DNA from: a virus
Strand: one strand, 5' to 3'
IMG/VR virus record: IMGVR_UViG_3300046009_006755
Location: 1-48,789 of that record
DNA length: 48,789 bases
The notes beneath the pieces were generated by a model. That model was not told the DNA's origin. It was given only the letters and a program-made list of their open reading frames with translations, and ran no database searches. The position numbers and the translations under genes were made by a program. Shown in pieces: positions 7,807 through 45,397 of the stretch (position 1 is the first letter of the stretch; the number at the start of each line of letters is the position of its first letter).

Positions 7807-8201
7807 CGCGTGTCGCGATTGAGGTCGTCGAAGAACTCTCGCGCCTCCTCGGGCACCTCGATCTCTTGAATCGTGAACATCGTCGGCTTCGTCACTTGGC
7901 GTTCTGAACGCGTGCGTTCGTCCCAAGTGATCTGCACGCACGTCACGCGGGCCGCGACGGCGGGGGCGAGTGCGAGGCTTGCTTCGCTGGCGGCGATCTC
8001 TTCCGGCGTCGGTGGCGCGGCTCGCTCGGGGCGGTGCCGCAGCCGGCGGTCGTGGCGGGGGGCGAGCGGCACGACCGACTTCAAACGGATCAACTGATCC
8101 TTCGTGATCGTCCAGTGCGTGCAGATAGCGTGCATGGAACTGTGAGAGTTCCACTGCAGCACGAGCGAGGTGAAGTCAATCGTGGCTGTCGAGCCGGCCA
8201 T
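7800..8201 (-). CDS. Hypothetical protein
   Basis: A 133-residue protein. It starts with a beta-like stretch (STATIDFTSLVLQWN), has a basic centre (PRHDRRLRHRPERAAPP), and ends in an acidic segment (EVPEEAREFFDDL). No known motif. The ATG has GAGGTGAAGG just upstream and overlaps the 3' end of the glycosyltransferase gene by 26 bases, so it is co-expressed with the glycan cassette and the lysis-like block. Function unknown. Confidence 0.6.
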   Translation of the reverse strand: MAGSTATIDFTSLVLQWNSHSSMHAICTHWTITKDQLIRLKSVVPLAPRHDRRLRHRPERAAPPTPEEIAASEASLALAPAVAARVTCVQITWDERTRSERQVTKPTMFTIQEIEVPEEAREFFDDLNRDTRW

Positions 8202-9057
8202 CCTTCACCTCTTGAGGCACCCAAAACGAAACGCATCGGCTCGACGGGTTCAACCCGAAACGCCCGCCGTGTGCCGCGATGCTGCGGTGGAACGTCACGT
8301 GCTCGCAGTCCTCGCCGCTGTACCGCCCCTGGAGGAACCGCTCGCCACGGTAGACAGCCAACTGCCCGAACGCGGAGCGGAACTCCACGGGCGGCGAGCC
8401 GACCGACGGATGCCAGAGATGGAACCACGACTGATCGCGACGCTGCCAGTGATTCAGTCGAGCGGCGAAGGCGTCATAGTGGATCGGCCCCATTCCAGAG
8501 AGTTGGGCAACCTCCGCCCACGAGTAAGACGCGAGCCCGTACCACGAGCGGTACAGTTCAAGCCACGCGATGCTACTCGCCACACCGTCAACGCTCCACC
8601 CGCCCCAGGCGTCGGTGTCGAACACGATCACGTAGTCGGGCTTCTCGCCGTGCCGAACAAACTCTTGGCACGCGGCGCGGTACTCCGCAAGCGCGATCGT
8701 TCGCACCGGCTCGATCGTCCCGTTCAAGTGCGGGCGGCCGTTGATGTTCAGCGACACTTGCCGCCGCTCGCCGTCAGCCCACACCGAGAGCACGTCCTTC
8801 GTCTCGTCGATCGAATCGTTCTCATAGATGAACGCCGACCACTCGCGAAACATCGCGCCCGTCTCTTCGACGAGCCGGAGCGTCTGCGGCAGGAACGGCA
8901 TCGCGTTCCGGCAGATGGCAACCAAGGCGACCGTGGCATCCGCCGCGGCGTGCCTCCCGTACTTCACGTCGCGCACGTAGTCGAGAGCGAACTCCGCGTC
9001 GGGCGGCAGGAACGCGTCGGCTTGGTGGGCGGCGACTTCGTCACGCGTGATCTGCAT
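8176..9057 (-). CDS. Glycosyltransferase, GT-A type
   Basis: A 293-residue protein. A Rossmann-like strand and loop (ATVALVAICRNAMPFLPQT) leads to WSAFIYENDSIDETKDVL and then VIVFDTDAWGGWS, a DxD metal-binding motif typical of GT-A nucleotide-sugar transferases. The C-terminal half has conserved acidic and aromatic residues (SGEDCEHVTFHRSIAAHGG). The pattern is like GT2/GT69-type polysaccharide transferases. Sugar donor and acceptor are unknown. It lacks membrane segments. It is the last gene of the seven-gene glycan cassette and has a good GGAGAG ribosome site. Confidence 0.8.
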   Translation of the reverse strand: MQITRDEVAAHQADAFLPPDAEFALDYVRDVKYGRHAAADATVALVAICRNAMPFLPQTLRLVEETGAMFREWSAFIYENDSIDETKDVLSVWADGERRQVSLNINGRPHLNGTIEPVRTIALAEYRAACQEFVRHGEKPDYVIVFDTDAWGGWSVDGVASSIAWLELYRSWYGLASYSWAEVAQLSGMGPIHYDAFAARLNHWQRRDQSWFHLWHPSVGSPPVEFRSAFGQLAVYRGERFLQGRYSGEDCEHVTFHRSIAAHGGRFGLNPSSRCVSFWVPQEVKDGRLDSHD

Positions 9058-9754
9058 GATCGTCTCTCCGCGTCTCCACCCACGCGAGCGGCGGATCGCC
9101 GTCGAGATCGTCCGCAGTCACCGCCACGCGATGATGCTCGGTATGCCACTCCGCACTCGGCACATGCGTGCCTTTCTCGGCACCGATGTTTTGGATTCGC
9201 GAGACGGTGGGAAACGCCTCGTACCGCCCGGCCCGTAGAGCGTGATTGACGATCACATCCCACGAGGTCGCATCGTCACGAGCCCACCCGTGGGCGAGGC
9301 CCAGCCACCGATCCCGCCACGTGCCCCAGCCCCACGGCGTGAACCACCGTCGCAGCCCGCACTCGCCGGTGCGACCGTTGCTGATCTTCTGGTAGCCGCT
9401 CACGTTCATCACGGCGGGATCGTCGCGGTATCGCTCGCGTGCCCAGGCGAACCACCGCAGGCAGTCGCGTGTCGGAACGCAATCATCCTCGAAGTGAAGA
9501 TGAAACTCGCTGCCCATCTGCTCGAAGCCGAACGCGAACGCCGACCGGATCGCCTGGTTGCATCCCACCCGGCGATCAAACGTCGCCGACTCGCAGCCGT
9601 ACCGGGCAGCCAGCCCAGCGGAGCGGGTCGCGTGCTCCGACGGGTCGATCAGCACGACCACGCGGCAGGCTTCGATGCCGATGCACGACCGCAAAGCGGC
9701 GAGCGTCTGCTCGAGATACTCGGGGCGGTTGTAGGCGGAGACGGTGATGTTCAA
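9041..9754 (-). CDS. Family-2-like glycosyltransferase
   Basis: About 237 residues. It opens with LNITVSAYNRPEYLEQTL (typical GT2 start), then VVVLIDPSE and LHFEDDCVPTRD, where EDD is the donor-binding acidic motif, and FTPWGWGTWRDRW, a signature common in GT-A transferases that act on surface glycans. The start is uncertain: a TTG at 9754 gives a 4-base TTGA overlap like its neighbours, while the longer reading to ATG 9814 overlaps the epimerase gene and has shadow-like composition. Acceptor unknown. Confidence 0.82.
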   Translation of the reverse strand: MNITVSAYNRPEYLEQTLAALRSCIGIEACRVVVLIDPSEHATRSAGLAARYGCESATFDRRVGCNQAIRSAFAFGFEQMGSEFHLHFEDDCVPTRDCLRWFAWARERYRDDPAVMNVSGYQKISNGRTGECGLRRWFTPWGWGTWRDRWLGLAHGWARDDATSWDVIVNHALRAGRYEAFPTVSRIQNIGAEKGTHVPSAEWHTEHHRVAVTADDLDGDPPLAWVETRRDDHADHA

Positions 9755-10287
9755 GCGAGCGGATTCCAAGCGGCGTCTTTCGCCGACGTGATCACCGCGG
9801 GCACCGCGGGCCACACCACTCCTATAGCGGGATCGTCAAACCGTGCGCCGGTCTCCGACTCGGGGTGATGCCCGGCGAACGCCACCGAGTAACTGCACCG
9901 CGAGGTCGGGGAGAGCGTCAGCATCCCGTGCGCGAAGCCTCGCGGAACGAACAGGAGATTCCGCCGCTCGTGCGAGAGCGTCACGCCGACCCACTGCCGG
10001 AACGTGGGCGAGTCGGGCCGCACGTCCACCGCCACGTCGAACACCTCGCCGTAGTGGCACGCCACGAGCTTCGCCTGCTCGTGCGGTGCCCTTTGCCAGT
10101 GCAAGCCACGCAGCACGCCACACGAACTCTCCACGAACTTGGTCGAGATCCACGCCCCGGGCAGCCCGGCGTTGGCGAACTGCCACGTGTGCCACGCTTC
10201 GCCGATCCACCCGCGTTCGTCAACGTGCGGCTCGATCACCACCTCGATGACTTCGGGAAGCCTCGTCGGTCGGAAGTCGATCTTCAT
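9751..10287 (-). CDS. rmlC: dTDP-4-dehydrorhamnose 3,5-epimerase-like protein
   Basis: A 178-residue cupin enzyme of the RmlC family, which epimerises C3 and C5 of a dTDP-4-keto-6-deoxy sugar in rhamnose and related pathways. Visible family features: DERGWIGEAWH, GVLRGLHWQ with the catalytic-base histidine, VFDVAVDVRPDSPTF, FVPRGFAHGML, and the closing FDDPAIGVVWP. Length matches the family (about 180). The ATG overlaps the previous stop (ATGA). No RmlA or RmlB homologue is in the window, so the keto-sugar substrate would have to come from the host, or the enzyme acts on another dTDP/GDP sugar. Confidence 0.9.
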   Translation of the reverse strand: MKIDFRPTRLPEVIEVVIEPHVDERGWIGEAWHTWQFANAGLPGAWISTKFVESSCGVLRGLHWQRAPHEQAKLVACHYGEVFDVAVDVRPDSPTFRQWVGVTLSHERRNLLFVPRGFAHGMLTLSPTSRCSYSVAFAGHHPESETGARFDDPAIGVVWPAVPAVITSAKDAAWNPLA

Positions 10288-11669
10288 GCCGTGGGAAAGT
10301 TGGTCGGGGCTCCGGTCGCGCCAGAGTATTCGTGGTACTTCGGGCGGTAGTTCTCGCCCAGCCAGCCAACCGTTTGCTGAAGGATGCCGTCGTGGGCGGG
10401 AGACCCGTCATAGAGTTCAAAGTTTTCGAGCGTGTCCCGGTGCCCGGCGGCGACGAGTTCCTCCCAGAGTTCGGTCCCGGGGAACGGAATGCAGTCGCTG
10501 ATCTGCCAGTGAACGCGGTTGCCGTGCTCCGCCCCCAGCCGCTCGAGCCCCTGGAGCAACTCTTGATCTCGCTGCCACGATCCGGGCTTCTCGCCCGGGA
10601 GGTTTCTCATGGTCGTGAAATGAAACTCCATCCCCGAGTATCGCGTCACGAGATACTTCAGATTCTCGTATGCGACCTGAACGTCGAGCGATTTCTTGAC
10701 GTTGTCGGCGAGCGTCTGATCGAACGTCTCCACCCCGAACCGCATGCCCACGCAACCGGCATCGACCATGCGGTCATAGAGTTCTGGCTTGCTCGTGTCG
10801 ATCCGGCCCATCATCGTCCACGGCAGCGACAGATCCTTGAGCCCGGCGAGGATCTTCTCGATCCTGCTCTTGCCTAGGTTCCACGTGTCATCGTCGAAGA
10901 AGATGCTCTTCATCTCATCGCCGAGCCACGCCTTCGCCTGGCGGAGTTCATCGACAACGGCATCGGCGGAGCGGGCGCGGTACTTGCCCGCGTTCATGAC
11001 GTTCGGCCATTGGCAATACGAACACTTGAACGGGCAGCCGCGCGAGGTCATCACCGTGAGTTGAACCTTCTCGGTCGGCATCGAGGGATCGTAGTAGTTG
11101 GCGAGCATCTCCGCCGGCGGTCGCCATGGGATGAAGTTCCGCCCGTCGGGGAGCGTGTCGATGTTCTCCAAGTGCTCAAAGCGGTAGATCGGCTTCGCCT
11201 GGTCGCCACGCCGGCAGATGTCAAGGACAGGAATGTCCGGTTCCCCGATCACGCAATGATCGACGTGAGGCTGCTCGATCCACCGCTCGGCATACGCTTT
11301 CATGTGCGGCCCGGTGTAGACGTTGCGGCAGTTGAAACTCTCCTTCGCCCACTTCGCGATCCCGTCGATGATGCCGACCGTCGGCGTCGCCACGTCATAG
11401 ACCACCACGTCGGGCTTGAACGAAGCGAACGCCATACGGGTGAAGTCGAGGCTCCAGTGCCGTTGCGCGACGCCGTCATAGAACGCGCAGTCGATCCCGT
11501 GGTGGGCGGCGTAGGTCATCGCCCAACTGAGCCAGAACGGAAACGGGGCGTAGCCTGAGAAGTGCGGCCCGGGATTCGTCCAGGGCCACCGGCTGCCGGC
11601 GTTCGGCCCGGTGTAGATCTCGCCGTGCTTCCACCGGATGAAGGGAATGTTCGCGAATAAGACCTTCAC
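10284..11669 (-). CDS. Cobalamin-type radical SAM enzyme
   Basis: A 461-residue protein with an N-terminal B12-binding-like Rossmann region (VLFANIPF..., VVVYDVATPTVGIIDGIA) and a radical SAM core with SRGCPFKCSYC, the CxxxCxxC 4Fe-4S site, then IFFDDDTWNLG and MRFGVETFDQT. The classical DxHxxG base-off cobalamin motif is not visible, so cobalamin use is uncertain. Such enzymes do methylations, ring rearrangements and other radical chemistry in natural-product and lipid or sugar pathways. A GTG at 11669 gives a 4-base overlap with the upstream stop and is preferred to the in-frame ATG at 11687. Its substrate is probably a sugar or glycolipid, by context. Confidence 0.88.
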   Translation of the reverse strand: MKVLFANIPFIRWKHGEIYTGPNAGSRWPWTNPGPHFSGYAPFPFWLSWAMTYAAHHGIDCAFYDGVAQRHWSLDFTRMAFASFKPDVVVYDVATPTVGIIDGIAKWAKESFNCRNVYTGPHMKAYAERWIEQPHVDHCVIGEPDIPVLDICRRGDQAKPIYRFEHLENIDTLPDGRNFIPWRPPAEMLANYYDPSMPTEKVQLTVMTSRGCPFKCSYCQWPNVMNAGKYRARSADAVVDELRQAKAWLGDEMKSIFFDDDTWNLGKSRIEKILAGLKDLSLPWTMMGRIDTSKPELYDRMVDAGCVGMRFGVETFDQTLADNVKKSLDVQVAYENLKYLVTRYSGMEFHFTTMRNLPGEKPGSWQRDQELLQGLERLGAEHGNRVHWQISDCIPFPGTELWEELVAAGHRDTLENFELYDGSPAHDGILQQTVGWLGENYRPKYHEYSGATGAPTNFPTA

Positions 11670-12550
11670 AGTTTTGTCTCCAGCCAATCCACGAGGGCGG
11701 TCATGCGGTGGGCGAACGTGTGCCGTTCGAGTACGAGCCGCCGGCCCGCTTCGCGGAACGGTTGCGTCTCGTGCGGATGCTTCAAGAAATGTCCTACCAC
11801 CCGCCGCAACTCCTCGCCGCCGTCAGTGAACGCGAGGCATCCGGCGAACTCGGCTTCCAACTGCGGCGACCAATCGCTCACCATGAAGCCACCGCAGGCG
11901 AGGGCGCAGAAGATCCGGTAGTTGAACGAGCCGTACTCGAGGTGCTCGCGGAGGTGAGAATTCAAGCAGACGCCGGCGGCCGAGTACGCTGCCGCCTCCG
12001 CTTCGACCGAGCACTTCCCGCGACACACCGGATCGTTCCACGCCGCCGGATTGCCGAACACGACGAGCCCCTGGTCGCGGCAGGCGAGGATTTGCCGCTC
12101 GGTGGTCTCGCGGTCGCGGATGTTGTTCCCCACGAACACGACCGGAAGCGGTGCCGCGTTCTCACGTGGATAGAACACCTCGGGATCGACGGCGAACTGC
12201 AGCACGAGCCCGTCGCCGCACCGATCCCGCAGCCCCGGCGAAGGAAACACGAACGCGTCGAAATGCGGGCGAGCCCGGGCGAACATCTCGACCGTGCCCG
12301 GCCACTCCGGTTGTGGGAAGACGTTCTGGAGGTAGAGCACTTGAAGCCCTGTCGTGCCCTTGGCAAACGGCGTGAATGAAACGCAGGCGTCGGCGGGCTC
12401 GAGCCCGTTGAGCTCGGCACGCTCCACGCGGGCGTCGCGGGCGAGGTACTTCACCCAGGCCCGGGCGACCATCTCGTCGCCCTGCACGTTCGCTCCGTTG
12501 TCCTCGGTCGAGATCGACGAGACCGAAGGCACGAGCACGTTGATCTTCAT
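11666..12550 (-). CDS. Glycosyltransferase with CgeB-like C-terminal domain
   Basis: A 294-residue protein starting MKINVLVPSVSSISTEDNG. The middle has FVFPSPGLRDRC and VVFVGNNIRDRETTERQ; the end has the pattern CLNSHLREHLEYGSFNYRIFCALACGGFMVSDWSP, which is typical of glycos_transf_1_2/CgeB domains in GT-B enzymes (nucleotide-sugar-binding half). Enzymes of this kind add single sugars to surface glycans, spore coats or natural products. The ATG overlaps the RmlD-like gene's stop (ATGA). The reading frame extends far upstream but overlaps the neighbour and is rejected as shadow. Confidence 0.8.
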   Translation of the reverse strand: MKINVLVPSVSSISTEDNGANVQGDEMVARAWVKYLARDARVERAELNGLEPADACVSFTPFAKGTTGLQVLYLQNVFPQPEWPGTVEMFARARPHFDAFVFPSPGLRDRCGDGLVLQFAVDPEVFYPRENAAPLPVVFVGNNIRDRETTERQILACRDQGLVVFGNPAAWNDPVCRGKCSVEAEAAAYSAAGVCLNSHLREHLEYGSFNYRIFCALACGGFMVSDWSPQLEAEFAGCLAFTDGGEELRRVVGHFLKHPHETQPFREAGRRLVLERHTFAHRMTALVDWLETKL

Positions 12551-13248
12551 GCCGTCACCAGCGACAGGTCGCGCGGCACGAGCGGGTTGTCGCACCGCCC
12601 CGGAACCACGAGGTCGGGATCGAGCCCGCGAAGCACGGCGATCGTGCGGAAGAGATCGAAGCGGTTCACACGCCGCCCGCCGGCCACGTGGATGATTCCC
12701 CGGCGACCCTCGCCCACGGCGTCGAGAATGCCCGCAGCAAGGGTGTCCACCGGGGTTGGGGTATTGAACCGATCCTCCCACGCCTCGACCGTCTGGCCGC
12801 GTGCCAGGCGGTCCACGAGCCACGCGATCCACGGGCAGCCTTCGGCGATCACGTGAGCGGTGCGGACGATCAGCACCGTCGGGCAGGCGGCGAGCACGGC
12901 ATCCTCGCCTCGAACCTTGCTCACGCCGTAGGCGGTCTTCGGATTCGGGGCTTCGTTGGCGGCGTACCCGCCCCGGCTGCCGTCGAACACGTAGTCGGTG
13001 GAGACGTACACGAACACCCCGCCGGCCCGGCGGGCGACCTTCGCCGCCGCCCGCATGTTCCGGCACGCTGCCATCGCGGGATCAGACTCGCACGCACCGA
13101 TCGCCTTCGTGCCGCTGGCCCACACGACGAGCGACGCGTACTCAATCGCCGGAGAGACTGCCGCCTCTTCGGCGCTGATCGGCTGCCCCGGAAACTCCAT
13201 CGCGGCATGGAGCGACCGCCCGACGAAGCCGCGACCCACGACGATCAT
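12547..13248 (-). CDS. RmlD-like NAD(P)-dependent sugar reductase/epimerase
   Basis: A 233-residue short-chain dehydrogenase of the extended type. The start MIVVGRGFVGRSL holds the Gly-rich nucleotide-binding turn; VYVSTDYVFDG and TAYGVSKVRGED carry the Ser/Thr and YxxxK catalytic residues. PTVLIVRTAHVI follows. The set matches dTDP-4-dehydrorhamnose reductase (RmlD), which reduces the RmlC product, but the protein is about 60 residues shorter than usual RmlD and the glycine motif is GRGFVG rather than GxxGxxG, so another NDP-sugar reductase is possible. Four-base overlap at both ends. Confidence 0.82.
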   Translation of the reverse strand: MIVVGRGFVGRSLHAAMEFPGQPISAEEAAVSPAIEYASLVVWASGTKAIGACESDPAMAACRNMRAAAKVARRAGGVFVYVSTDYVFDGSRGGYAANEAPNPKTAYGVSKVRGEDAVLAACPTVLIVRTAHVIAEGCPWIAWLVDRLARGQTVEAWEDRFNTPTPVDTLAAGILDAVGEGRRGIIHVAGGRRVNRFDLFRTIAVLRGLDPDLVVPGRCDNPLVPRDLSLVTA

Positions 13249-15751: not shown

Positions 15752-15784
15752 GCCTGCACTTTGCCACGACGGGCAAGCAGGCTT

Positions 15785-15823
15785 GCAGCGGCGGGCCGGG
15801 AGCGCACCCGGCACCGCCGCTGC
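15785..15823 (-). terminator. GC-rich hairpin after sliding-clamp gene
   Basis: Perfect 10-bp inverted repeat GCAGCGGCGG (15785-15794) and CCGCCGCTGC (15814-15823), with an inner GCCGGG/CCCGGC extension. There is no T-tract, so it may be a pause, an RNA-stabilising element or a factor-dependent terminator. It is followed by CTGCAAGCCTGC on the sense strand. Confidence 0.5.
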
Positions 15824-15831
15824 TCACCACG

Positions 15832-16959
15832 TCAGCCGGTCGGATCGAGCGGCATGATCACACTGCGGTACTCATCGTCCTCGCCGAACGTCAGCACCAC
15901 CGCGTCACCCGGCCCAGCGGTCGAGAGCCGCATGTTGGGCTCGCCGTCGAGAGACGAGAGAGCCCGGCACACGTCGGCGACGAATCGCGGATCAAGTTTC
16001 ACCGTGCCCGACGTGCCCGCCGTCACGATGTCGCACTCGACCTTGCTCTCGCCGCTCTCCGAGCTCTGCCCGTGGAGCGTGATCCCTGAGTCTGTGAACG
16101 TGTAGTCCACACCCTTCGACTGCTCGGTGGTCACGACCGCAGCCGCGCGAGTCGCCGAGAGAAGAGCACCGATCTCGACCACGTGCTCGGTGGCGTCCCG
16201 ATCGGGGAACACGTCCCGCCACTTCGGGAAGCGACCCTCGATGAGCCTCGCCGTCACCGTCTGCCCGTCGAACGTGGCGACGATCTCCGACTTGGATGCC
16301 TCCAACTGCACGGCGGTGCCGTCGCCCTTGTGCTTCATGGCGATCGCCGCCATCTGCTGAATCGCATGCTCTGGCACGAGTACCTCGACCGGGTCGAGAT
16401 CTTGGCCGAACTCGATGAGCGCGACCGACAGCCGCCGGCCGTCACTCGCGCACAGCGTGCACTCGCCCTCCTGCACCTCGATCTGCACCGCCCCGAGCGC
16501 GAACCGACTCGACTCGTTGTCGCAGGCGTAGGAGACGCTGCGAACAGCCCGGGCGAACTGGTCGCACGGGATGCGTGGCAACGCCGTGAGTTTGCCAGTC
16601 TCCCACGTTGGGAACTCTGCCGCGTCCTCCACCGGGAGCCGCCACTCGCCGCGGCCCACGTTCACGATGCACGCCGCACCGTCCCGGGTGAGCGTCACTT
16701 CGTCGCCGGTCGCCGTCTCGAGGATCGACCGCAGCCGCGCGTGCGGCAGGAGCAGCGGATCGTCGTGCCAGTCGAGGTGGCAGTCGATCCGCAGTTCAAG
16801 GTCGGTCGCCGTGATGAGGCCGTCGTGAAGCAAAACGTTCGACAGGATCGGCTTCGGCCCTCGGGTCGCAACCGCCGCCGCCACGTCTTTCAACGCCGCG
16901 AGCAACTGCCCGCGGTCCATCGTCACACCGGCTTTGCGCCGCTTCGTCGCTGTAGTCAT
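15832..16959 (-). CDS. dnaN: DNA polymerase III beta sliding clamp
   Basis: A 375-residue protein matching bacterial beta clamps in length and pattern: three repeated domains, with MDRGQLLAALKDVAAAVATRG..PILSNVLL opening domain 1, SRFALGAVQIEV and CTLCASDGRRLSVAL in domain 2, and a C-terminus ending VIMPLDPTG that resembles the family's VMPMRL-type tail. Clamps encircle DNA and tether the replicative polymerase. Start 16959 has AAAGGA upstream. No DNA polymerase is seen in the window, so the clamp probably recruits the host enzyme or other partners. Confidence 0.9.
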   Translation of the reverse strand: MTTATKRRKAGVTMDRGQLLAALKDVAAAVATRGPKPILSNVLLHDGLITATDLELRIDCHLDWHDDPLLLPHARLRSILETATGDEVTLTRDGAACIVNVGRGEWRLPVEDAAEFPTWETGKLTALPRIPCDQFARAVRSVSYACDNESSRFALGAVQIEVQEGECTLCASDGRRLSVALIEFGQDLDPVEVLVPEHAIQQMAAIAMKHKGDGTAVQLEASKSEIVATFDGQTVTARLIEGRFPKWRDVFPDRDATEHVVEIGALLSATRAAAVVTTEQSKGVDYTFTDSGITLHGQSSESGESKVECDIVTAGTSGTVKLDPRFVADVCRALSSLDGEPNMRLSTAGPGDAVVLTFGEDDEYRSVIMPLDPTG

Positions 16960-17068
16960 GAGAATCCTTTCTCTTTGAAAGTGAAACACCTACCGCCACT
17001 CCAAGGGCGAACACGATCGCCTGGAGAATGCTGCCAAACATCACGCACACCACTTGCTCGATGGTCAT
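16796..17068 (-). CDS. Possible small membrane protein overlapping dnaN
   Basis: Reading from ATG 17068, which makes a 4-base ATGA overlap with the upstream stop, gives about 90 residues. A strong membrane helix (VMFGSILQAIVFALGVAVGV) is followed by SLSKRKDSHDYSDEAAQS and then a low-complexity Arg/Gly tail that runs 164 bases into dnaN in another frame. The hydrophobic head and coupled start argue for a real gene; the tail argues for recent extension or loss of an earlier stop. Function unknown. Confidence 0.5.
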   Translation of the reverse strand: MTIEQVVCVMFGSILQAIVFALGVAVGVSLSKRKDSHDYSDEAAQSRCDDGPRAVARGVERRGGGGCDPRAEADPVERFASRRPHHGDRP

Positions 17069-17779: not shown

Positions 17780-18422
17780 GGGATTCCTTTCCGGGCGGCT
17801 CTTCAGCCGCTGTGGTCTTAGTCTCTTCGTCAACCGGCGATCCGTCGCCTGTCTTCGTGTTCAGCATCCGATGGGGACGGAGACGCCGGGCTGGTCCAAC
17901 ACCGGCCCCGGCGGTCTCCGCACTGATACTCTCACTGGTACTTACTGAAGTACCACTGAGAGAGACTGAATAGCGCGCACCGCCTGTGCGCGCAGTGTGC
18001 ACACCATGTGCGCGCTGCGCGCACGCCTCGTGCTCACTGCGCGCACGTAGCGTGTCCGGAGCGCGCACGCCTTGTGCGCGCAAGCGCGCACACTGTGTGT
18101 CCGGGGTGTGCACGCTACGTGCGCGCAACGGGATGACATATTTCGTCCTAGACCGGCCGTTCCCGGGCTCCAAAACCTCCAGAACGCCGACCTTGACGAG
18201 TTGAGATATGCCCCTCCGTACAGTGGTGATATGGGTCTGAATGGCTTCGGCGGCCCGGCGGAGCGAGAACCGAACCTCACACGTAGACCAATCGGCCCGC
18301 TCGAACACGTAGAGGGCCACCAGGCGGCCTTCGCTCCCAAGCGAGGCTAGGGAGCCGTCGGCGAGAAACTCCCGCCAGCGGCTGCGTAATGCGGCCTTAT
18401 GGTGTGGCTTCTTCTTCGCCAT
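17760..18422 (-). CDS. Winged-helix replication initiator candidate with internal iterons
   Basis: A 220-residue protein. The first about 100 residues form a winged-helix domain (WREFLADGSLASLGSEGRLVALYVFE..., VRFSLRRAAEAIQTHITTVRRGISQLVKVGVLEVL). After it comes an Arg/Ala/His-rich segment encoded by a GCGCGC-rich repeat cluster (17973-18128), then a Ser/Thr-rich part and an acidic tail. Next to a primase-helicase, with repeats inside the gene, this is the arrangement of lambda O-like initiators, whose gene contains the origin. Start 18422 overlaps the helicase stop (TGATG). Role inferred from domain plus context. Confidence 0.72.
   Translation of the reverse strand: MAKKKPHHKAALRSRWREFLADGSLASLGSEGRLVALYVFERADWSTCEVRFSLRRAAEAIQTHITTVRRGISQLVKVGVLEVLEPGNGRSRTKYVIPLRARSVHTPDTQCARLRAQGVRAPDTLRARSEHEACAQRAHGVHTARTGGARYSVSLSGTSVSTSESISAETAGAGVGPARRLRPHRMLNTKTGDGSPVDEETKTTAAEEPPGKESHDEPPG
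17931..18128. repeat. Iteron cluster and hairpin, candidate replication origin
   Basis: Between 17973 and 18128 there are about nine GCGCGC-containing boxes, five of them TGCGCGCA palindromes. Two copies of a 45-bp unit lie in tandem (codons for LRARSVHTPDTQCAR and LRAQGVRAPDTLRAR on the minus strand). Beside it, 17931-17960 holds a near-perfect inverted repeat (13-base arms, one mismatch, loop ACTG, core GGTACTT/AAGTACC). Repeats plus hairpin within the initiator gene are what an iteron origin looks like. Confidence 0.6.
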
Positions 18423-37435: not shown

Positions 37436-37753
37436 CTACGTTGTCTCCTGGCAGATGACCTCATGCTCACTGCGGTTCGCGTGCTCGAGGAGCGACACGA
37501 TCTCCAGCGTCCGCCCCCGCCACGAGGCCCGCATCTGCTGCGTGAGCCCCGGCACGTAGCGGCAGCGGATGCGGTGGCTCATCTCGATCTGTTGCTGCCC
37601 AGCAAGCAGGAACTCTCGCGACGAGACGCCTTCGACCTGAGCCCACACTGTCTTGAAATCCGCCCAGGTCGAGACGCTCTCGCCGAGCGCGTTCCGGTTC
37701 TCGGTAGGCGATTGCCACGTCACCCGCTCGCGGAGTTTCCCGGCGTCGATCAT
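37436..37753 (-). CDS. Head-tail adaptor (joining) protein
   Basis: A 105-residue protein: MIDAGKLRERVTWQSPTENRNALGES..STWADF is the hallmark start of phage head-tail joining proteins (SPP1 gp16-like), followed by a beta core (FKTVWAQVEGVSSREFLLAGQQQ, SHRIRCRYVPGLTQQM, RGRTLEIVSLLE). It connects the portal-connector to the tail. Start ATG 37753 overlaps the previous stop (TGATG). Confidence 0.85.
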   Translation of the reverse strand: MIDAGKLRERVTWQSPTENRNALGESVSTWADFKTVWAQVEGVSSREFLLAGQQQIEMSHRIRCRYVPGLTQQMRASWRGRTLEIVSLLEHANRSEHEVICQETT

Positions 37754-38202
37754 CACAAGCCCCAGATGACGAGACGGTAGGAGCCTGTTCCTGAATTGCT
37801 GAAGATTCTTATCGTCGGGTTGAAATTTCGTGAGTGCTCGACCGCGGCTCTCCCACGACGCGAAACGAGCCTCGCAACTTCGATATCGGTTTCGTCGCCA
37901 AGCCTCGCATATCCGCCGTCGGCCGCGTCAAACGAAAACGCCATACCTTCCATGTATCCACCGGGGAATCCAAAGTTTTGCCCGTTGGCGTTTGTGTATG
38001 GCAGCCGCCACACGCCGTCGTATAGCGTGACTCCGCTGGTTCCGGCGGTTCCAGAAAACGAGGCTGCGATCATCGGAAATCCGCCCTCTGCAATTTCGCT
38101 CGGAACGCGATAGTCCTCGAACTTGATCACCTTGATTCGGTTCCCCGACGCCTTGTCGTGCAGCGAAATTCCGACTGTGATGTAGCCATCGTCGATGCTC
38201 AT
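37753..38202 (-). CDS. Hypothetical virion-associated protein
   Basis: A 149-residue protein (MSIDDGYITVGISLHDKASG). Beta-rich, aromatic (TLYDGVWRLPYTNANGQNFGFPGGYMEGMAF) and ending GTGSYRLVIWGL. Its last strand resembles the ends of the 38199-38606 protein (TATYSLLVVGT), suggesting that the two share a fold. Located between connector genes, so a head decoration or head-tail associated fibre is possible. Not recognised as a known family. Confidence 0.65.
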   Translation of the reverse strand: MSIDDGYITVGISLHDKASGNRIKVIKFEDYRVPSEIAEGGFPMIAASFSGTAGTSGVTLYDGVWRLPYTNANGQNFGFPGGYMEGMAFSFDAADGGYARLGDETDIEVARLVSRRGRAAVEHSRNFNPTIRIFSNSGTGSYRLVIWGL

Positions 38203-38606
38203 GTGCCCACCACCAGAAGCGAGTAGGTCGCCGTGCCCGTCGTGGTTCGCACTGCGAAGGAAGTGTTCGTCCGCTCGGTGCCGGTCATCTCATAGATGCC
38301 GACGCGGCTGCCGCTAGAGAAGTAGGTTCTGCCGTCGGCGTTCGTCGTGAGCTCGGCGTGCGGATTCGCGGAGAACGCGACGCGCTCCACGAACTGAAAC
38401 GTGACGTTCGTGCCCTCGGCGGCCGTGTATGGAAACGGCTGCCGGGAGATGAAGATCGTCTGCGTGCCTACGGTGCCTGTCGTGAATGCGGCCTTGCCGG
38501 TCGATGCGACGGCGCTGGACGATTCCAGCGACAGGACGTTCAGCGCCGTCGTGCCGTCGAGGTCGTGCACCACCACGTCGGAATTGAATCGCCCATCGAG
38601 CGTCAC
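38199..38606 (-). CDS. Hypothetical virion-associated beta protein
   Basis: A 135-residue protein starting GTG (TLDGRFNSDVVVHDLDGTT), beta-rich, with TIFISRQPFPYTAAEGTNVTFQFVE and a final RTTTGTATYSLLVVGT. The GTG overlaps the previous stop (GTGA). Composition and C-terminal pattern are like the next gene, which suggests duplication and divergence. Role in the virion is inferred from location only. Confidence 0.65.
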   Translation of the reverse strand: MTLDGRFNSDVVVHDLDGTTALNVLSLESSSAVASTGKAAFTTGTVGTQTIFISRQPFPYTAAEGTNVTFQFVERVAFSANPHAELTTNADGRTYFSSGSRVGIYEMTGTERTNTSFAVRTTTGTATYSLLVVGT

Positions 38607-39223
38607 GCGTACTGCCCCCAGGAGACAGAGTCGAGCAGAGCCTTCGCCCCGGCGGGCAGTTGGGCATCGCCGCGCTTCTCGTAGAGTTCGAGCACGGTCA
38701 TCAAGATCGCGTTCTTCACCCGCTGCGGCACGCTCGCCGCGGCACCGTAGCCCGCCCACCACGTGACGCTGATCGAGTTCTGATCGTCACGGTTGCTCGG
38801 CCACGTTCCGCCGTAGAGGTTGCGGATCGCCCCCGGCGTAGCGTCACGATCGACGCGGTACTCGCTCGTCGAAAGCGTTGTTGTCGCCCCGGTGTCGTTC
38901 AGCGTGTACGTGACCACGACAGCCGTAGTGGTGCCGCTGCCGCTCATCGGCGGGCGGGGCACCTCGATCTCCGGGGGGAACTGGTCGAGCCGCATCACGT
39001 ACTGCTGGGTGACGAGAGCCCGGTCGAGGTAGTCCTCGCAGAGTTCGCGGGCGGCGGTGATGTAGCCAGTGATCAGCGAATCGTCGGTGTCGATATCGAC
39101 GCGGCAGTGGCTCTTGGCTTCCGCCAACGTCACCGGCTCCACCGCCGGATCGCTGGTTCGCCTCAGGCTGCGGTATCGCTTGCCGCCATCGTAGAAAGAT
39201 TGACTCAAAGTCTGGTATCCCAC
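38603..39223 (-). CDS. Head-tail connector, gp6-like
   Basis: A 206-residue protein with EPVTLAEAKSHCRVDIDTDDSLITGYITAARELCEDYLDRAL, the well-known start of gp6-like connectors (LxxaKxxLrvdxdxdDxlixxyixaAxxxxexyxgr), and a beta/alpha tail (VKNAILMTVLELYEKRGD). Connectors form rings beneath the portal. Length is as usual. It is upstream of the virion-associated genes. Confidence 0.85.
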   Translation of the reverse strand: MGYQTLSQSFYDGGKRYRSLRRTSDPAVEPVTLAEAKSHCRVDIDTDDSLITGYITAARELCEDYLDRALVTQQYVMRLDQFPPEIEVPRPPMSGSGTTTAVVVTYTLNDTGATTTLSTSEYRVDRDATPGAIRNLYGGTWPSNRDDQNSISVTWWAGYGAAASVPQRVKNAILMTVLELYEKRGDAQLPAGAKALLDSVSWGQYA

Positions 39224-39394: not shown

Positions 39395-39570
39395 GGCTGC
39401 TTCTTCTGCTTGGGCTTCGGCGTGTCGAGGAGCGGCTGGTCGGCGTCGGCAGCCCGCTTCGCGTACTCCCACGCGATCAGTGACTCCGCCTGGCGTTCCG
39501 GCAGCTCGACCACTTCGCCTTTCTTGTAGGCGGCGTAGGGCTTGGTCATCCTTATCCTCATCATCTTCAC
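39391..39570 (-). CDS. Small phage protein, paralogue of the preceding one
   Basis: A 59-residue protein beginning (GTG) KMMRIRMTKPYAAYKKGEVV. The GTG at 39570 overlaps the previous stop (GTGA); ATG 39564 and 39561 are alternatives. See the neighbour for shared pattern; together they look like a tandem duplication with later divergence. Ends in a Lys/Pro-rich tail (LDTPKPKQKKQP). Function unknown. Confidence 0.6.
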   Translation of the reverse strand: MKMMRIRMTKPYAAYKKGEVVELPERQAESLIAWEYAKRAADADQPLLDTPKPKQKKQP

Positions 39571-40301
39571 TGAGGCACGCTCCATGCAGACTCCGGGGGC
39601 TTGCGGGTGTTTTGCCATTCGGTCGTGTATTGATAGACCGGGCCGGCGAGGTTCTTTCCGGGCCACGTGATCACGTATTCGCCGTGCCCGATCGTGACGC
39701 GCGGCGTCACGTACAGGCGGTTGCCGCTGGCCTTGAAATTCGCCCAGAACGCGATGTCGGCGTCGCGCCTGCCTTCGCCCCAGCCGCCCTTCGGGTCGGG
39801 CTGTTCGTGAAACCACGGCTTCGCCATGCGGCGGAGAGCCCGCGTCGAGATCACCGTGCAGCCGAAATGCGCGGTGTCCACTTGCTGCACCGGAGCACCG
39901 AACCACCCGACCGGCACCTCGGTGATGCCGCCCTCGGGCGGATTGTCCAGCGTGTCGAGGAGCGTCAGCATCGGGCGACCGTCCTCGCGTTTCGTCTGGA
40001 GCGGCGCGAGCGCGTCGCACTGAAACGTCATCGCGAGAGCGAATAGATGTTCGATGTTGTCCCGGCTCACGAAACTGTCCATATCGAGAGTGATGATGTA
40101 TTCCGTGGTCGGCTCGAACTGTTCGAGCATCCGCGTGAGCACTTGGCTCCAGTAGGCTCCTTGTCCGAGTGTCGGGCGAATATGCAGCGGCATCATCGCT
40201 TCGATGAAGCCGAAGATGTTGATGAGCGGCCCGAAACGCGGGCCGGACAGGATCGCCTCGCACCGCACTTCGACCTTCGTATCGCCAACCTGAACAAGCA
40301 T
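39567..40301 (-). CDS. Glycosyltransferase-like protein in structural module
   Basis: A 244-residue protein. TTEYIITLDMDSFVSRDNIEHL has the DxD metal/donor motif of GT-A enzymes; further features are QVDTAHFGCTVISTRALRR and a late conserved DADIAFWANFKASGNRLY plus VTIGHGEYV. The pattern fits glycosyltransferases such as those encoded in phage structural regions. Start 40301 has GAGGTG upstream. It is separated from the capsid genes by a strong terminator. The natural role could be sugar addition to the capsid or tail. Confidence 0.75.
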   Translation of the reverse strand: MLVQVGDTKVEVRCEAILSGPRFGPLINIFGFIEAMMPLHIRPTLGQGAYWSQVLTRMLEQFEPTTEYIITLDMDSFVSRDNIEHLFALAMTFQCDALAPLQTKREDGRPMLTLLDTLDNPPEGGITEVPVGWFGAPVQQVDTAHFGCTVISTRALRRMAKPWFHEQPDPKGGWGEGRRDADIAFWANFKASGNRLYVTPRVTIGHGEYVITWPGKNLAGPVYQYTTEWQNTRKPPESAWSVPQ

Positions 40302-40311
40302 GGGCACCTCG

Positions 40312-40353
40312 CAAAAAGAAAGCGGCGGGTGTGACGCGTGCCACACCCGCCGC
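40312..40353 (-). terminator. Rho-independent terminator after capsid genes
   Basis: Perfect 12-bp inverted repeat (GCGGCGGGTGTG 40322-40333; CACACCCGCCGC 40342-40353) with an 8-base loop, followed on the minus strand by TTTCTTTTTG. It lies 26 bases after the decoration-like gene. It is the strongest terminator seen and should set capsid proteins at higher levels than the genes beyond. Confidence 0.85.
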
Positions 40354-40378
40354 CTAGATTGCCATGCTTGTCAACCGA

Positions 40379-40840
40379 TCAGCCGACCGCCTGCGTGCTC
40401 GCGCCCTTGTCGGAGGCCGAGACCGGCCCGGCTTCGCCCTTGCTGAGACGAGCCACCGTGATCACGCCGACCGTGCTCACGGGCGTGGCGTACACCGTCA
40501 AGTAGCGCCGGCGGCCGCGGAGGTCAACGTCGAACCGATGCACGTAGCCCGTCGCGGAACCGCTGGTGCTCGTGGCACCGGCGGCAACCGTGAAGTCCGT
40601 TCCGCCCACGAAGCCCGAGATGTTGCTCTGGGCAGCCGTCCCGGTCGTGTCGGAGTGAGCAAGCCGGATCACCGTCGCGGCGGTTGCGGCGGTCGCCGCA
40701 GCCGACGTGAACGGCGAGAAAACAAGGTCAATGGACGCGTACTCGAACCCGAGCGTGTCGATCTCAAGCGAGTGGGTCGCACTCGAGAGCACCGCCGTCT
40801 CGGCCTTCGCAACCGTCTTCTGAGCAGCACCGTAGTTCAT
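40379..40840 (-). CDS. Decoration-like capsid-associated protein
   Basis: A 153-residue protein (MNYGAAQKTVAKAETAVLSS), rich in Ala, Thr and Ser, predicted beta (HSLEIDTLGFEYASIDLVFSPF and later FDVDLRGRRRYLTVYATPV). It lies 26 bases downstream of the major capsid gene, before the terminator, as decoration/head-fibre proteins often do. The fold DTLGFEYASI... resembles small capsid decoration proteins in HK97-like phages. AGGAG precedes the ATG. Confidence 0.75.
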   Translation of the reverse strand: MNYGAAQKTVAKAETAVLSSATHSLEIDTLGFEYASIDLVFSPFTSAAATAATAATVIRLAHSDTTGTAAQSNISGFVGGTDFTVAAGATSTSGSATGYVHRFDVDLRGRRRYLTVYATPVSTVGVITVARLSKGEAGPVSASDKGASTQAVG

Positions 40841-40866: not shown

Positions 40867-42243
40867 TCAGCCGAACCGGAGGGCCACGATCGGACCCGCC
40901 TTCGAGGTCGATCCCAGATCGTTGACCACGATCGCGTTGCGAGCCGTGGCGAACGTGAGGGTCTGATCGAACTCCACGTACCGCTCGCTCGCAGTCTTGA
41001 TCGAGATCGCCCGGCGATCACCGTAGATCGCAGCCTGCGAGAGATCACCGAACAGGGCAGCCACCTGGCCGGTCGTGCCGGTGAGGCGGCTCTCCATCGG
41101 CTGCACGAGGGTCACAGGGTAGCCCAGGAACGTCTCGCCGAAACCGGCCGCGACGTTGTCGGTGCTGTTGCCACCGGCGTTCGACGCACCGCCTGGCAGC
41201 ATGGCGAGCCGCAGCATCGCCGAACCCCAGCCAGCCGGCGAGATGTACCACCGAGCGTTCCGGTTGCGAGCGTACAGCGGCAGCCGGGCGAGCGTGTCGG
41301 TGAAGTTCAGCATCGTCAGCGACCCGAACGTCGTGTTGCTGGTCGCGGTCACCACGCTGCCGGAAAACGCCGACTGCAGGATCTTCGGGCAGACGCCGGT
41401 CACGCCGTGGTATTGGGAGGTGCCATCGCCGATGAACGCCGAATTGTCGATTGCCTCGCTGAACGCCTGAGCCACTTCGAGGGCCATAAGGTCAGCGAGG
41501 TCAATCACCGAGTCTTCGAGCAGCGAGTTCGGGACGCGGTTCGCCACGCCCCAGATCTTCGCGTTCAGTTCGACATTGTCGAACGTCACGTCGCTCGCCG
41601 ACACTTCGACGTTCTCACCCACCGGGCGAGCGGTGAGGCCGCCCGTCCGACGCGGGATGATCATCGTATCGGAGTTCATCGGCATCCGGCGGGCGTACTG
41701 CGGATAGACTCCAAATTCTTCGATAAGACGGATCAGCTCTGTGCTCATCTCGGGGCTAGTCAACACACCGCCGAGCGAGTTGATTCCACCGGCCTGGACG
41801 CGGGTTTCGACGCCGTGATCCTTGCACCACCGACGGGCTTCGGCATCGCCGAACACGTAGCCCTTCAGGTGCATACCAGCGCGGTATGCGGTCTCGTTGT
41901 CGCGGAACGCGCGGAGGTTGTGATTGGCCTTCGGCACGGCGTACTCGGTTCGCGTCTCCACGTTCTTCTCCTCGGGGGTTGCGGCCTTCTCGACCACCTT
42001 CGCGGGAGCGGCACGCTCCAGCACGCTGCGGAGCTCGAGCTCCTTGGTCTGAACTCGCTGCAGGAACTCGATCCGCTCGCGGAGCTTGTCGGCCTTGCCT
42101 TCGAGCGAGCGGAGGGAAGCCTCCTGCTCCTCGGTCATGGGTGCCGCCTCTTCGCCCTCGGGGGCGTCCTCGGTCATCGCTTCCATCTCGGCGACAACGG
42201 CAGCCAACTCGTCCAGCAGAGCCTTGAGCTTCTCGACAGCCAC
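40867..42243 (-). CDS. HK97-fold major capsid protein with scaffold domain
   Basis: A 458-residue protein. The first about 110 residues are a charged coiled coil (EKLKALLDELAAVVAEMEAM..., EEQEASLRSLEGKADKLRERI), a delta-type scaffold domain, removed by the prohead protease in HK97-like phages. The remainder has the capsid fold signatures: GGVLTSPEMSTELIRLIEEFGV (start), VPNSLLEDSVIDLADLMALEVAQAF, FIGDGTSQYHGVTGV, and RWYISPAGWGSAMLRL. Begins at GTG with AGGAG. It is preceded by protease and portal genes. Confidence 0.92.
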   Translation of the reverse strand: MAVEKLKALLDELAAVVAEMEAMTEDAPEGEEAAPMTEEQEASLRSLEGKADKLRERIEFLQRVQTKELELRSVLERAAPAKVVEKAATPEEKNVETRTEYAVPKANHNLRAFRDNETAYRAGMHLKGYVFGDAEARRWCKDHGVETRVQAGGINSLGGVLTSPEMSTELIRLIEEFGVYPQYARRMPMNSDTMIIPRRTGGLTARPVGENVEVSASDVTFDNVELNAKIWGVANRVPNSLLEDSVIDLADLMALEVAQAFSEAIDNSAFIGDGTSQYHGVTGVCPKILQSAFSGSVVTATSNTTFGSLTMLNFTDTLARLPLYARNRNARWYISPAGWGSAMLRLAMLPGGASNAGGNSTDNVAAGFGETFLGYPVTLVQPMESRLTGTTGQVAALFGDLSQAAIYGDRRAISIKTASERYVEFDQTLTFATARNAIVVNDLGSTSKAGPIVALRFG

Positions 42244-42359: not shown

Positions 42360-42533
42360 CTAGGCTGCCGGCTTCACACGCCGCACTTCGGCAGAGGGAA
42401 GAACGTGCTTGTCGGTGTTGCCGCACCGGCACCGCAAGTACCGAATTTGGTACTCGCCCTGGCGTTGACTCGACGCCACGAGCAACTTCCCGATCTTGCA
42501 ATTCGGACACGAATCGCCGGACTTAGCGGCCAT
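42360..42533 (-). CDS. Small zinc-ribbon protein (57 residues)
   Basis: Starts MAAKSGDSCPNCKIGKLLVA and has CRCGNTDKHVLP near the end, so CPNC..CRC forms a zinc ribbon. It overlaps the prohead protease gene by 11 bases. The gap 42244-42359 downstream holds a CCTTGC/GCAAGG hairpin but no clear promoter. Such small zinc proteins near capsid genes are seen in other phages; function unknown. Confidence 0.65.
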   Translation of the reverse strand: MAAKSGDSCPNCKIGKLLVASSQRQGEYQIRYLRCRCGNTDKHVLPSAEVRRVKPAA

Positions 42534-43188
42534 GAGACCTCAGATACTCGCGGAACTCTGCGGTCTTCGCGGCCGACTGCACGCGCCGGGCGACCACCGC
42601 CTCGCGCTGCTGGCGGAACTGTTCGAGCGAACGCTGGGCGACTTCAAGCCCGCCGTCGCCGTAGGCCGGATAGGTGCATGGGCCGACATCAAGAAGCGAA
42701 TCGACCGAGCGAATCGTTCGCACGCTTTGCCCGTCCTCGATCGCCCAATCATCGCCGCCCGAGGGCACGGTGAACGCGAACGAACTGCCGAGCACAATCC
42801 CCGCCGCGATGTTGCTGGCGAGATCACGCCCGTAGGTCGTGTCGGGCACGGGGAACTCATACCGCAGCCCTACCTCGTCCACCGTCAGCGACAGCGTTCG
42901 CGGATAGCGGGCGAGCGGATAGTTCGAGTCGTGATTGAAGAGCGCCCGCGTTTCGAGCTTTCTCTTGCGGCCGCGTCGCTCCGAGACGAGCCCGAACGCT
43001 GCCGGGTCGATCCGCTCGTAGAAGTCACCGAGCAGGAGCGAACGCACGCCAAAGCGGGCGGCGTAGCCGACGATGTATTCGCGCTCGCCTTCGCCCTCGA
43101 TGCTCCGCTTCTCGACTGCGAGCATCGGCACGGCGGCGTCGGCGTTCTCTTCGATCAACAGGCTGCGGCGTTCAACTGCGTTGCTCAT
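42523..43188 (-). CDS. HK97-family prohead protease
   Basis: A 221-residue protein. Motifs: VGYAARFGVRS at the start of the domain, TRALFNHDSNYPLARY (catalytic His), IVLGSSFAFTVP (catalytic Ser). This U35-type protease cleaves the capsid scaffold during prohead maturation. Start 43188 has AGGAGAG upstream. The same frame is open further upstream as LWGGDPGQDWANKLVKQMNA directly after a TAA stop, see findings. It adjoins the zinc-ribbon and capsid genes. Confidence 0.9.
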   Translation of the reverse strand: MSNAVERRSLLIEENADAAVPMLAVEKRSIEGEGEREYIVGYAARFGVRSLLLGDFYERIDPAAFGLVSERRGRKRKLETRALFNHDSNYPLARYPRTLSLTVDEVGLRYEFPVPDTTYGRDLASNIAAGIVLGSSFAFTVPSGGDDWAIEDGQSVRTIRSVDSLLDVGPCTYPAYGDGGLEVAQRSLEQFRQQREAVVARRVQSAAKTAEFREYLRSHGR

Positions 43189-43266
43189 CGTTCTCTCCTC
43201 GTCTGCGGCGTTCATTTGTTTCACCAACTTGTTCGCCCAATCTTGCCCGGGGTCTCCGCCCCATAG

Positions 43267-43545
43267 TTAAAGCGCCCAGGCGATGCGGCCGGCCGACGGC
43301 CAACCTTCTTCGCCTGGGCGGTAGCCCTTTCCTTGCTTGTCGATTTCGTGCCTGTCGAAATACGCCTTCATGCGGCGGGCCGTCTCGGGCGAGATGTTCA
43401 CGCCGTTCGACAGGTCGCGAGCGCGAGCCACGCCAACGGCGGTTCCTCCACGGTTGAACTCGTCGCGCCACGCGAGCCCCTTCGCGGCTTCGTCGCGGAC
43501 GCCACCCGGCGGCGTGAAGTCGATGTGGTCATACTTAGCCGCCAC
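43267..43545 (-). CDS. Small conserved phage protein, truncated at its C-terminal motif
   Basis: A 92-residue protein (GTG start, AAKYDHIDFTPPGGVRDEAA). It has the pattern F.PP.GVR.EA..GL.WR......GG..VGVARARDLSNG..ISPETARRM.AYFDRH, known to me from phage and plasmid proteins, which normally ends P..GRIAWxLWGGDxGxxWA. Here IAWAL is followed by TAA and then, in the same frame, LWGGDPGQDWANKL. So the conserved ending is separated by one stop codon. Overlap of 11 bases with the portal stop. Confidence 0.72.
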   Translation of the reverse strand: MAAKYDHIDFTPPGGVRDEAAKGLAWRDEFNRGGTAVGVARARDLSNGVNISPETARRMKAYFDRHEIDKQGKGYRPGEEGWPSAGRIAWAL

Positions 43546-45397
43546 GCTTGCGCCCCTTCCGCTTTGGCTTGCTGTATGCCTTCTCCTCGACCGGCGGCGG
43601 CTCGGGCAGCGGGTCGATCTTCGTGAGCGTCGCGACCTTGTGCCCGACTTGCGTCTCGGTCGCACGCCATCCGCCGCTCACTTCTTCGTACACCGTGATG
43701 AGGGCAGCCGGGTCTTCTTCGGTCGCGTCAATCTTGAAGTCAGTGCCCGGCACGTCGAGCGTGCCGTAGTCCATGACGTGATCAATTCGTCCGCGAGCAC
43801 GGCCGCCCGACGAATCCCACGAGACGAAGTCGCCTTCGGCTACGCTGCCGGGATCGGCCCGGGCTTCGCTGCTCGCAGCCTCCGCGACGGGGGCGGGTGC
43901 TGGATCAACTGGAGCCTCGCTCGGCATCGTCTCGTTCACGCCGGCAAGAATCGCCGCGATCTGCTGCGCGTTGATGCTCGGGAACGACGCCGCGATGAGG
44001 GCCGCCGCACCTTCCTTCGTGATGAGGCCAACGGGCACTTGTGAGATGATCGCAATGAGTCCCGTGATCTGCGCACCGTTGAGACTCACGTCGGCGACTT
44101 GCGGCGCGGCTGGCTCCGCTGGTGCCGCTGCTGCCTCCGCCGCTGCCAGCCCGCCTTCGACCGCCTGCCCGTCGATGCCGCTCCCTGGTTGCTGCTGCGC
44201 GAGCACGTCGGTCGCCGTCGGCTCCTGGCCCAGCGTGCCCATGTTCAACGGGCGGTAACGCGTGTCGCCGCCTTCAACCGGGTTCATTCCTTCTTCGGCT
44301 CGAATGTCGTTCGTCGAATAAACGCCGAGATCCCACAACTGACGGTACAGCCCGGAGCGGCTCGTGGAGTCGGCCCGCAGCATGAAGCGGGTGTCGAAGG
44401 AAACCTCGAAGCGGTCATCCTCGACGATCAGATCGCGCGTGAACGCCGACTCGAAGCGTCGCAGCCACGGCATGATCGTGTCGGTGAGGAACTCCTGCGA
44501 CGAGGTTTCGAGCGACCCGGGCGGGGTCGAGCCAGCGGCTTGGATTTTCCAACCAGGCACGCGCCAGAGTCGGCAGATTTCCTCGATCTGGAAACGCCGG
44601 CCCTCAAGCCACTGGCTGTCAGTATTTGTGTTCTGCGGCAGCCCGTAGGGCTTCAGCCCGCCCGTGAGTACGGCGGTGCGGTGAGAGTTGCCGACGCCGG
44701 CGTGCTTGCGGTCCCACTGGTTCGCCAGCGTCTCGCGGGCTTCGGCGTTGAGTTGCCCCTCGGTGCTGAGTACGAACCCGGGCCGGGCACCGGCGGCGAA
44801 GTACCGCGCCCCGTGGAGTTCGTAAGCCCGGGCGAGGGCGATCGCGTCCTTGCACGTCTCGACCGGCGAGAGCCCGTTGATGCCGTCCTCGGTGAGCCCG
44901 CGAATGGCGAGAATCTGCTCTTGGTTGTAGAGCGTCTCCTGGCCTCGCTCCTCGCGATACTTGTAGCGGAGCTTGCCGTTCTCCAGCCGCTCGACCTTCA
45001 TCCGCGACGGGTGCAGCGGGATGAGCTGATCGACTGCCCCCGACTGCCCGGGCACGATCTCGCAGTACGCGACGTTGTAGAGGCCCGCATGGAGCATCAA
45101 CTGGCAACGCCACTCAAACGAGGTCTGCCACCCGTTCGGCTGGAGGTTCAACTTCCGGTAGAGCGGGAGTTCGGTCGCGCGACGCTTGCCGCCGTCGCCC
45201 ATCCGCTCGAGCACGTGGAGAGTCGGCGTCGCCACCGCCTCCGCGAGCACGCGGATGCACGCGAACACGGTCGAGACCATGAGCGCGTTGTCGGGGCTGA
45301 TCCGCACTCCGGCAGAGGATCGCGAGCTCGCGTCCTCGTCCCACATGCGTTCCTCGCCGGGAAGCCAGAGGATGCGGTGCTCGTTTTTCGCGATCAT
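43535..45397 (-). CDS. HK97-like portal protein with C-terminal extension
   Basis: A 620-residue protein. The portal core (residues about 25-420) shows NALMVSTVFACIRVLAEAVATPTLHV, then QLIPLHPSRMKVERLENG, ILAIRGLTEDGINGLSPVETCKDAIALA, and GGDTRYRPLNMGTLG. Portal proteins form the 12-mer DNA channel. About 200 residues beyond the usual 400-450: GLITKEGAAALIAASFPSINAQQIAAILAGV and a Tudor/HVA1-like end (GDFVSWDSSGGRARGRIDHV ... EEDPAALITVYEE). Start ATG overlaps TerL stop (ATGA) with no Shine-Dalgarno. Confidence 0.9.
   Translation of the reverse strand: MIAKNEHRILWLPGEERMWDEDASSRSSAGVRISPDNALMVSTVFACIRVLAEAVATPTLHVLERMGDGGKRRATELPLYRKLNLQPNGWQTSFEWRCQLMLHAGLYNVAYCEIVPGQSGAVDQLIPLHPSRMKVERLENGKLRYKYREERGQETLYNQEQILAIRGLTEDGINGLSPVETCKDAIALARAYELHGARYFAAGARPGFVLSTEGQLNAEARETLANQWDRKHAGVGNSHRTAVLTGGLKPYGLPQNTNTDSQWLEGRRFQIEEICRLWRVPGWKIQAAGSTPPGSLETSSQEFLTDTIMPWLRRFESAFTRDLIVEDDRFEVSFDTRFMLRADSTSRSGLYRQLWDLGVYSTNDIRAEEGMNPVEGGDTRYRPLNMGTLGQEPTATDVLAQQQPGSGIDGQAVEGGLAAAEAAAAPAEPAAPQVADVSLNGAQITGLIAIISQVPVGLITKEGAAALIAASFPSINAQQIAAILAGVNETMPSEAPVDPAPAPVAEAASSEARADPGSVAEGDFVSWDSSGGRARGRIDHVMDYGTLDVPGTDFKIDATEEDPAALITVYEEVSGGWRATETQVGHKVATLTKIDPLPEPPPVEEKAYSKPKRKGRKRGG

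Follow-up and report, generated by a model that had tools for sequence, protein, structure and literature searches.

The window analysed here is a virus record 48,789 bases long. Its head module carries a predicted glycosyltransferase (GT) gene that is universal and highly conserved in a large, uncultivated clade of mostly environmental tailed phages, and that is preceded by a similarly conserved attenuator-like hairpin. On balance, we favor the reading that this is a core, vertically maintained, metal-dependent GT-A enzyme, made late and at attenuated levels, which adds sugar to a virion protein, the likeliest candidate being the major capsid protein (MCP). Coordinates are collected in Table 1.

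Table 1. Positions of the head-module genes, the hairpin and the accessory cassette in the window.
Feature	Position	Strand	Details
Predicted GT-A glycosyltransferase gene	39567..40301	-	244 aa; ATG 40301, stop 39567
Terminator/attenuator-like hairpin	40320..40355	-	16 bp, T-rich tail; 18 nt before GT start codon
153-aa protein (p153), between MCP and GT	40379..40840	-	S/T-rich (25%)
MCP, HK97 type	40867..42243	-	PF05065 5e-35
Prohead protease S78	42523..43227	-	PF04586 1e-31
Portal protein	43535..45397	-	PF04860 3e-86
Small paralogue, 54 aa	39391..39555	-	phrog_2616/829
Small paralogue, 57 aa	39227..39400	-	phrog_2616/829
gp6-like head-tail connector	38603..39223	-	PF05135, phrog_442; opens at GTG 39223
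Head closure protein	37436..37756	-	phrog_25
Accessory glycan cassette	8176..13066	-	GT2-like, GT2-like, RmlC, radical SAM, GT1-like

On the (-) strand, the module runs from terminase through portal, S78 protease, MCP and p153 to the hairpin and the GT, and continues with two paralogues of about 55 aa, the gp6-like connector, head closure and tail terminator genes. A Shine-Dalgarno-like GAGGTG lies close upstream of the GT start codon. (The C-terminus of the portal protein contains a Hva1_TUDOR domain, PF11160, over cut-off.) An earlier note on this DNA had placed a DxD-containing glycosyltransferase in the structural module, separated from the capsid genes by a terminator and followed by small paralogues and connector genes, and each part of that description agrees with our analysis: the DxD is D73-M74-D75 in a protein with a GT-A fold according to AlphaFold2 with Foldseek and VIA, the separating element is a terminator-like 16-bp hairpin, and the two paralogues precede the gp6-like connector. 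The same note called the gene isolated, which is misleading, as every relative examined has the GT as a constant member of its head module.

Single-protein scans of IMG/VR with the GT returned at least about 600 stretches. So that selection would not rest on the GT itself, relatives were also sought by their MCP, and among the MCP-selected loci with downstream room the GT came directly after the MCP in 70/70, while it was present in 58/58 loci selected by connector alignment and having upstream room; the locus sets overlap between scans and share descent, so these counts show constancy and not independent events. In both selections, the GT sits between capsid and connector. The p153 gene is present in clade A and was not detected in most clade B loci, where the GT follows the MCP by about 92 nt, so that the constant neighbours of the GT are the MCP and the connector.

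Because loci selected by the GT are biased for a comparison of identities, that comparison was redone on the connector-selected loci. Here, median identity to the window was 61% for the GT, 64% for head closure and 57% for the connector, against 40% for the MCP and 38% for the portal; the GT was more conserved than the MCP in 43/54 loci and than the connector in 58/64. Measured against the window, dN/dS was 0.08-0.11 for the GT and 0.09-0.32 for the MCP. The GT is under strong purifying selection, and it is a core gene of the head module in this phage group, not an add-on.

Profile searches of Pfam and NCBIfam left the GT protein without an assignment over cut-off. The Pfam GT2 families PF00535 and PF13641 gave only sub-threshold matches, short of their curated cut-offs, with the weak PF00535 matches covering the DxD segment; an 18-residue match to DUF3954, also under cut-off, was judged to be chance. 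A sequence search of the PDB with the single protein returned no match, and a PDB profile match to an acyl-carrier protein (E 0.74) was likewise set aside as chance. The GT represents a protein family absent from Pfam and NCBIfam. Its connection to annotated glycosyltransferases runs through phrog_1574, which is matched at E<=1 by 8/8 diverse family members (best 1.2e-8; the window protein itself, 0.013). Labelled as of "unknown function", phrog_1574 includes a cyanophage protein annotated as a glycosyltransferase and itself matches phrog glycosyltransferases. Profile-profile comparison links the GT family to the relatives of phrog_1574 (E 1.9e-4) and, across the C-terminal motifs, to a family annotated as "has synthase" (6e-7).

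From these matches, the window GT appears to be a remote relative of phrog_1574 and not a member of it. Both families share the DxD, PWF, D-F/W and GH motifs with the window GT, but at about 20-24% identity, in other genomic contexts and in other phage types; phrog_1574, the cyanophage T4-like GT, lies near baseplate genes. The "has synthase" of the Manatee Spring podovirus ctxSa4 (MW202718.1 6773-7519) is one such remote relative, and its gene clusters with further annotated glycosyl- and methyltransferases. When the window GT was run by tblastn against 50,697 phage records, no relative turned up among isolated phages; a distant member of the GT family gave weak matches leading to cyanophage GTs. 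Among 219 distinct homologues, with identity down to 56%, the invariant residues comprise D73xD75, K104-R-E-D-G-R-P-M, D142 and H145, together with P162-W163, D180xD182 and G205-H-G-E.

An AlphaFold2 model built from 53 sequences of the protein's own family reached a pLDDT of 80.3 and a pTM of 0.83 (with 18 close sequences, pLDDT was 36), and places D73xD75 after a strand at 68-73. Foldseek matched this model to 134 PDB chains at E<=0.001, and the matches listed are nearly all glycosyltransferases or GT-like proteins; the best matches in BFVD are uncultured-phage proteins, several of them named GT-A or glycosyltransferase, with E down to 1e-12. VIA gave Z scores of 17.4 for LH3 (207 residues), 16.2 for mimivirus R699, 15.8 for STIV A197 and 13.9 for Mnn9, where absence of a structure from the VIA list was not counted as evidence. 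The model thus predicts a Rossmann-like GT-A fold for the window GT. Its closest solved folds, PLOD/LH3, ColGalT1, the GT-like domains of mimivirus R699 and Mnn9 (GT62), belong to protein- or glycan-directed GT-A enzymes, at 9-16% identity to the window GT. In the collagen-modifying enzymes, an accessory Rossmann domain comes after the catalytic one (PMC11838735), and the aligned segments, LH3 283-545 and R699 247-455, appear from our assignment of the residues to be accessory and not catalytic domains. Since the top structural matches look like accessory domains, the fold alone is no proof of activity, and the case for activity is made instead from the invariant motifs, which point to a metal-dependent glycosyltransferase.

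The hairpin at 40355-40320 has the GC-rich stem and following T-tract of the terminator consensus, the stem leading into a TTTCTTTTT-like tail. In 161/161 distinct upstream regions, this element stands immediately ahead of the GT; its stem varies in sequence and, when folded, has 12 or more pairs, of which 8-15 are G-C. Control segments inside the GT or upstream of the connector or MCP seldom or never have 7 G-C pairs. The T-tract in relatives contains 3-7 T within 9 nt after the stem and is often interrupted. Across 24 diverse sequences, the stem is paired in 89.5% of cells, compared with 39-56% when slid, and its covariation score of 0.41 (0.207 when shuffled) was reached in 0/500 shuffles. 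No Rfam family fits the element. In some clades, an outer helix of 5-7 bp (GTGCAA/TTGCAC or CGGGCA/TGCCCG, for example) could enclose the Shine-Dalgarno sequence. Such a helix shows a weak excess against swapped tails (6.15 vs 5.87), a slight sign that the hairpin may also act in translational control.

The most plausible reading of the hairpin is an intrinsic terminator that allows read-through, by which capsid protein would be expressed above the enzyme and the connector. In T7, the attenuating terminator Tphi lies after the major capsid gene, gene 10, and before the connector genes. The two elements are alike in standing after the capsid gene or genes and before the connector genes; they differ in that Tphi is a terminator for a phage RNA polymerase, whereas the hairpin described here has a start codon about 15-31 nt away.

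Taken together, these features suggest the following course of events. The head genes would be transcribed late and the GT gene with them, as its position in the head module argues. The hairpin and T-tract after the capsid cistron or cistrons would then stop part of the transcription, leaving capsid protein in excess over the GT and connectors, which would be made in smaller amounts. The GT, presumably a soluble, metal-dependent GT-A enzyme made in small amount, would draw a nucleotide-sugar from the host pool; its DxD would bind the metal and the sugar-nucleotide, D180/D182 and H206 would complete the site, and the sugar would be transferred to a virion protein while the particle is being assembled. 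The MCP is the most likely acceptor because it is the invariant, abundant neighbour, with a connector or tail protein as an alternative. We note that p153, possibly a head decoration protein, is disfavoured as an obligate acceptor, given that most of clade B has no recognisable p153 and yet keeps the GT.

There are precedents for such an activity. In STIV, which has a glycosylated MCP, the GT-A protein A197 is essential (PMC10551542). A197 (PDB 2c0n) is, like the window GT, a minimal single-domain viral GT-A protein, and VIA superposes the two with an rmsd of 3.0 over 170/191 residues at 14% identity; STIV, however, is an archaeal double-jelly-roll virus, and no HK97-type capsid gene adjoins the A197 gene. 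Among tailed phages, the Corndog genes for gp36-38 lie between portal and protease inside the structural operon, and infected cells contain their products, which went unidentified in virions (PMC4351075); gp38 is described as essential for capsid glycosylation (PMC12363180). The window GT shares with those of Corndog and Che8 (gp110) that it is encoded by a tailed phage, and with those of Corndog its place amid structural genes, but their GTs stand in a different place (portal/protease, or the genome end in cluster F) and form sets of several GTs plus a methyltransferase in only some clusters. By analogy, the window GT may act on a virion protein as Corndog gp38 does and as STIV A197 is thought to.

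The GT could instead modify a glycan or receptor on the host cell surface late in infection, serving superinfection exclusion or release. Phage glycosyltransferases can do so, as in serotype conversion (PMC12619734), but we consider this unlikely here: the GT is a single-domain 244-aa protein with no membrane partner genes recognised beside it, its position inside the head module is universal, and its conservation above that of the MCP is not moron-like. Similarly, it is doubtful that a GT-A fold was recruited as a non-catalytic factor for head assembly or head-tail joining. The absolute linkage to MCP and connector and the resemblance of the best structural matches to accessory GT-like domains would fit such a role, whereas the placement behind an attenuator suggests a catalytic amount, and D73xD75, D180xD182 and H206 are invariant in the 219 distinct proteins; a dead enzyme would not be expected to keep every sugar-nucleotide and metal motif unchanged.

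The glycan cassette at 8-13 kb bears on a further possibility, that it and the capsid-module GT form one pathway building a complex virion glycan. Both are encoded in the window, and RmlC suggests a rhamnose-type sugar; the three GT-like ORFs of the cassette have weak matches to PF13704 and PF00535 and a strong one to PF13524. (A radical-SAM protein is encoded beside RmlC, at 10284-11687.) However, cassette GT1 and RmlC occur in just 1/19 relatives carrying the capsid-module GT, and the 18 lacking them include 8 contigs of 43-54 kb in which both are absent, absence from fragmentary contigs being weak evidence. The cassette is accessory and clearly separable from the core capsid-module GT; the two could cooperate in this single genome, but we think a shared pathway quite improbable. 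The earlier note had counted four predicted glycosyltransferases, correctly, though two of the matches are under Pfam cut-offs, and had taken them as a sign of glycosylated virion proteins. As the cassette is accessory, that argument gains nothing from it; virion glycosylation itself remains plausible and is the most economical reading of a GT that is universal in a late head module. Least probable is glycosylation of phage DNA at hypermodified bases in the style of the T-even glucosyltransferases: virus-encoded DNA-modifying GTs are known (Pyle 2024, as cited in PMC12619734) and the phage encodes DNA methyltransferases, but the GT lies in the head module away from the replication genes, and hydroxymethylase or thymidylate-synthase homologues were absent among the 20 early-region ORFs scanned.

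Given that every relative examined has this gene at one and the same position, a sugar coating of the particle is probably a built-in step in making these phages. We suggest more tentatively, as a possibility that may well prove wrong, that capsid glycosylation is an obligatory step of assembly or maturation throughout this widespread HK97-fold clade. A dedicated GT-A family would then belong to the head module as firmly as the protease or the connector does, and capsid glycosylation would not be an optional add-on for evading immunity or defence. To our knowledge, virion glycosylation has been described in few phages, and it is usually viewed as an accessory trait. The present clade, with its hundreds of IMG/VR loci and no close isolate found, differs: the GT is universal, keeps its gene neighbours, and exceeds in conservation the capsid protein that it follows. 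It offers a cheap case in which to test whether glycosylation belongs to the core of tailed-phage assembly.

The only match to a bacterial contig, 14.9 kb long and from a Planctomycetota metagenome-assembled genome, covers a phage module. The host may belong to the Planctomycetota, as indicated by this one contig, for which a binning error is possible. Elsewhere in the window, the early region encodes a trypsin-like serine protease (15014-15814; PF00089, 5e-21), unusual for a phage, and a phage-encoded DNA polymerase III beta clamp lies at 15832-16989. A very strong GC-rich inverted repeat at 17985-18025 (TGTGCGCGCAGTG...), with a stem of 17-19 bp, is a candidate origin or terminator.
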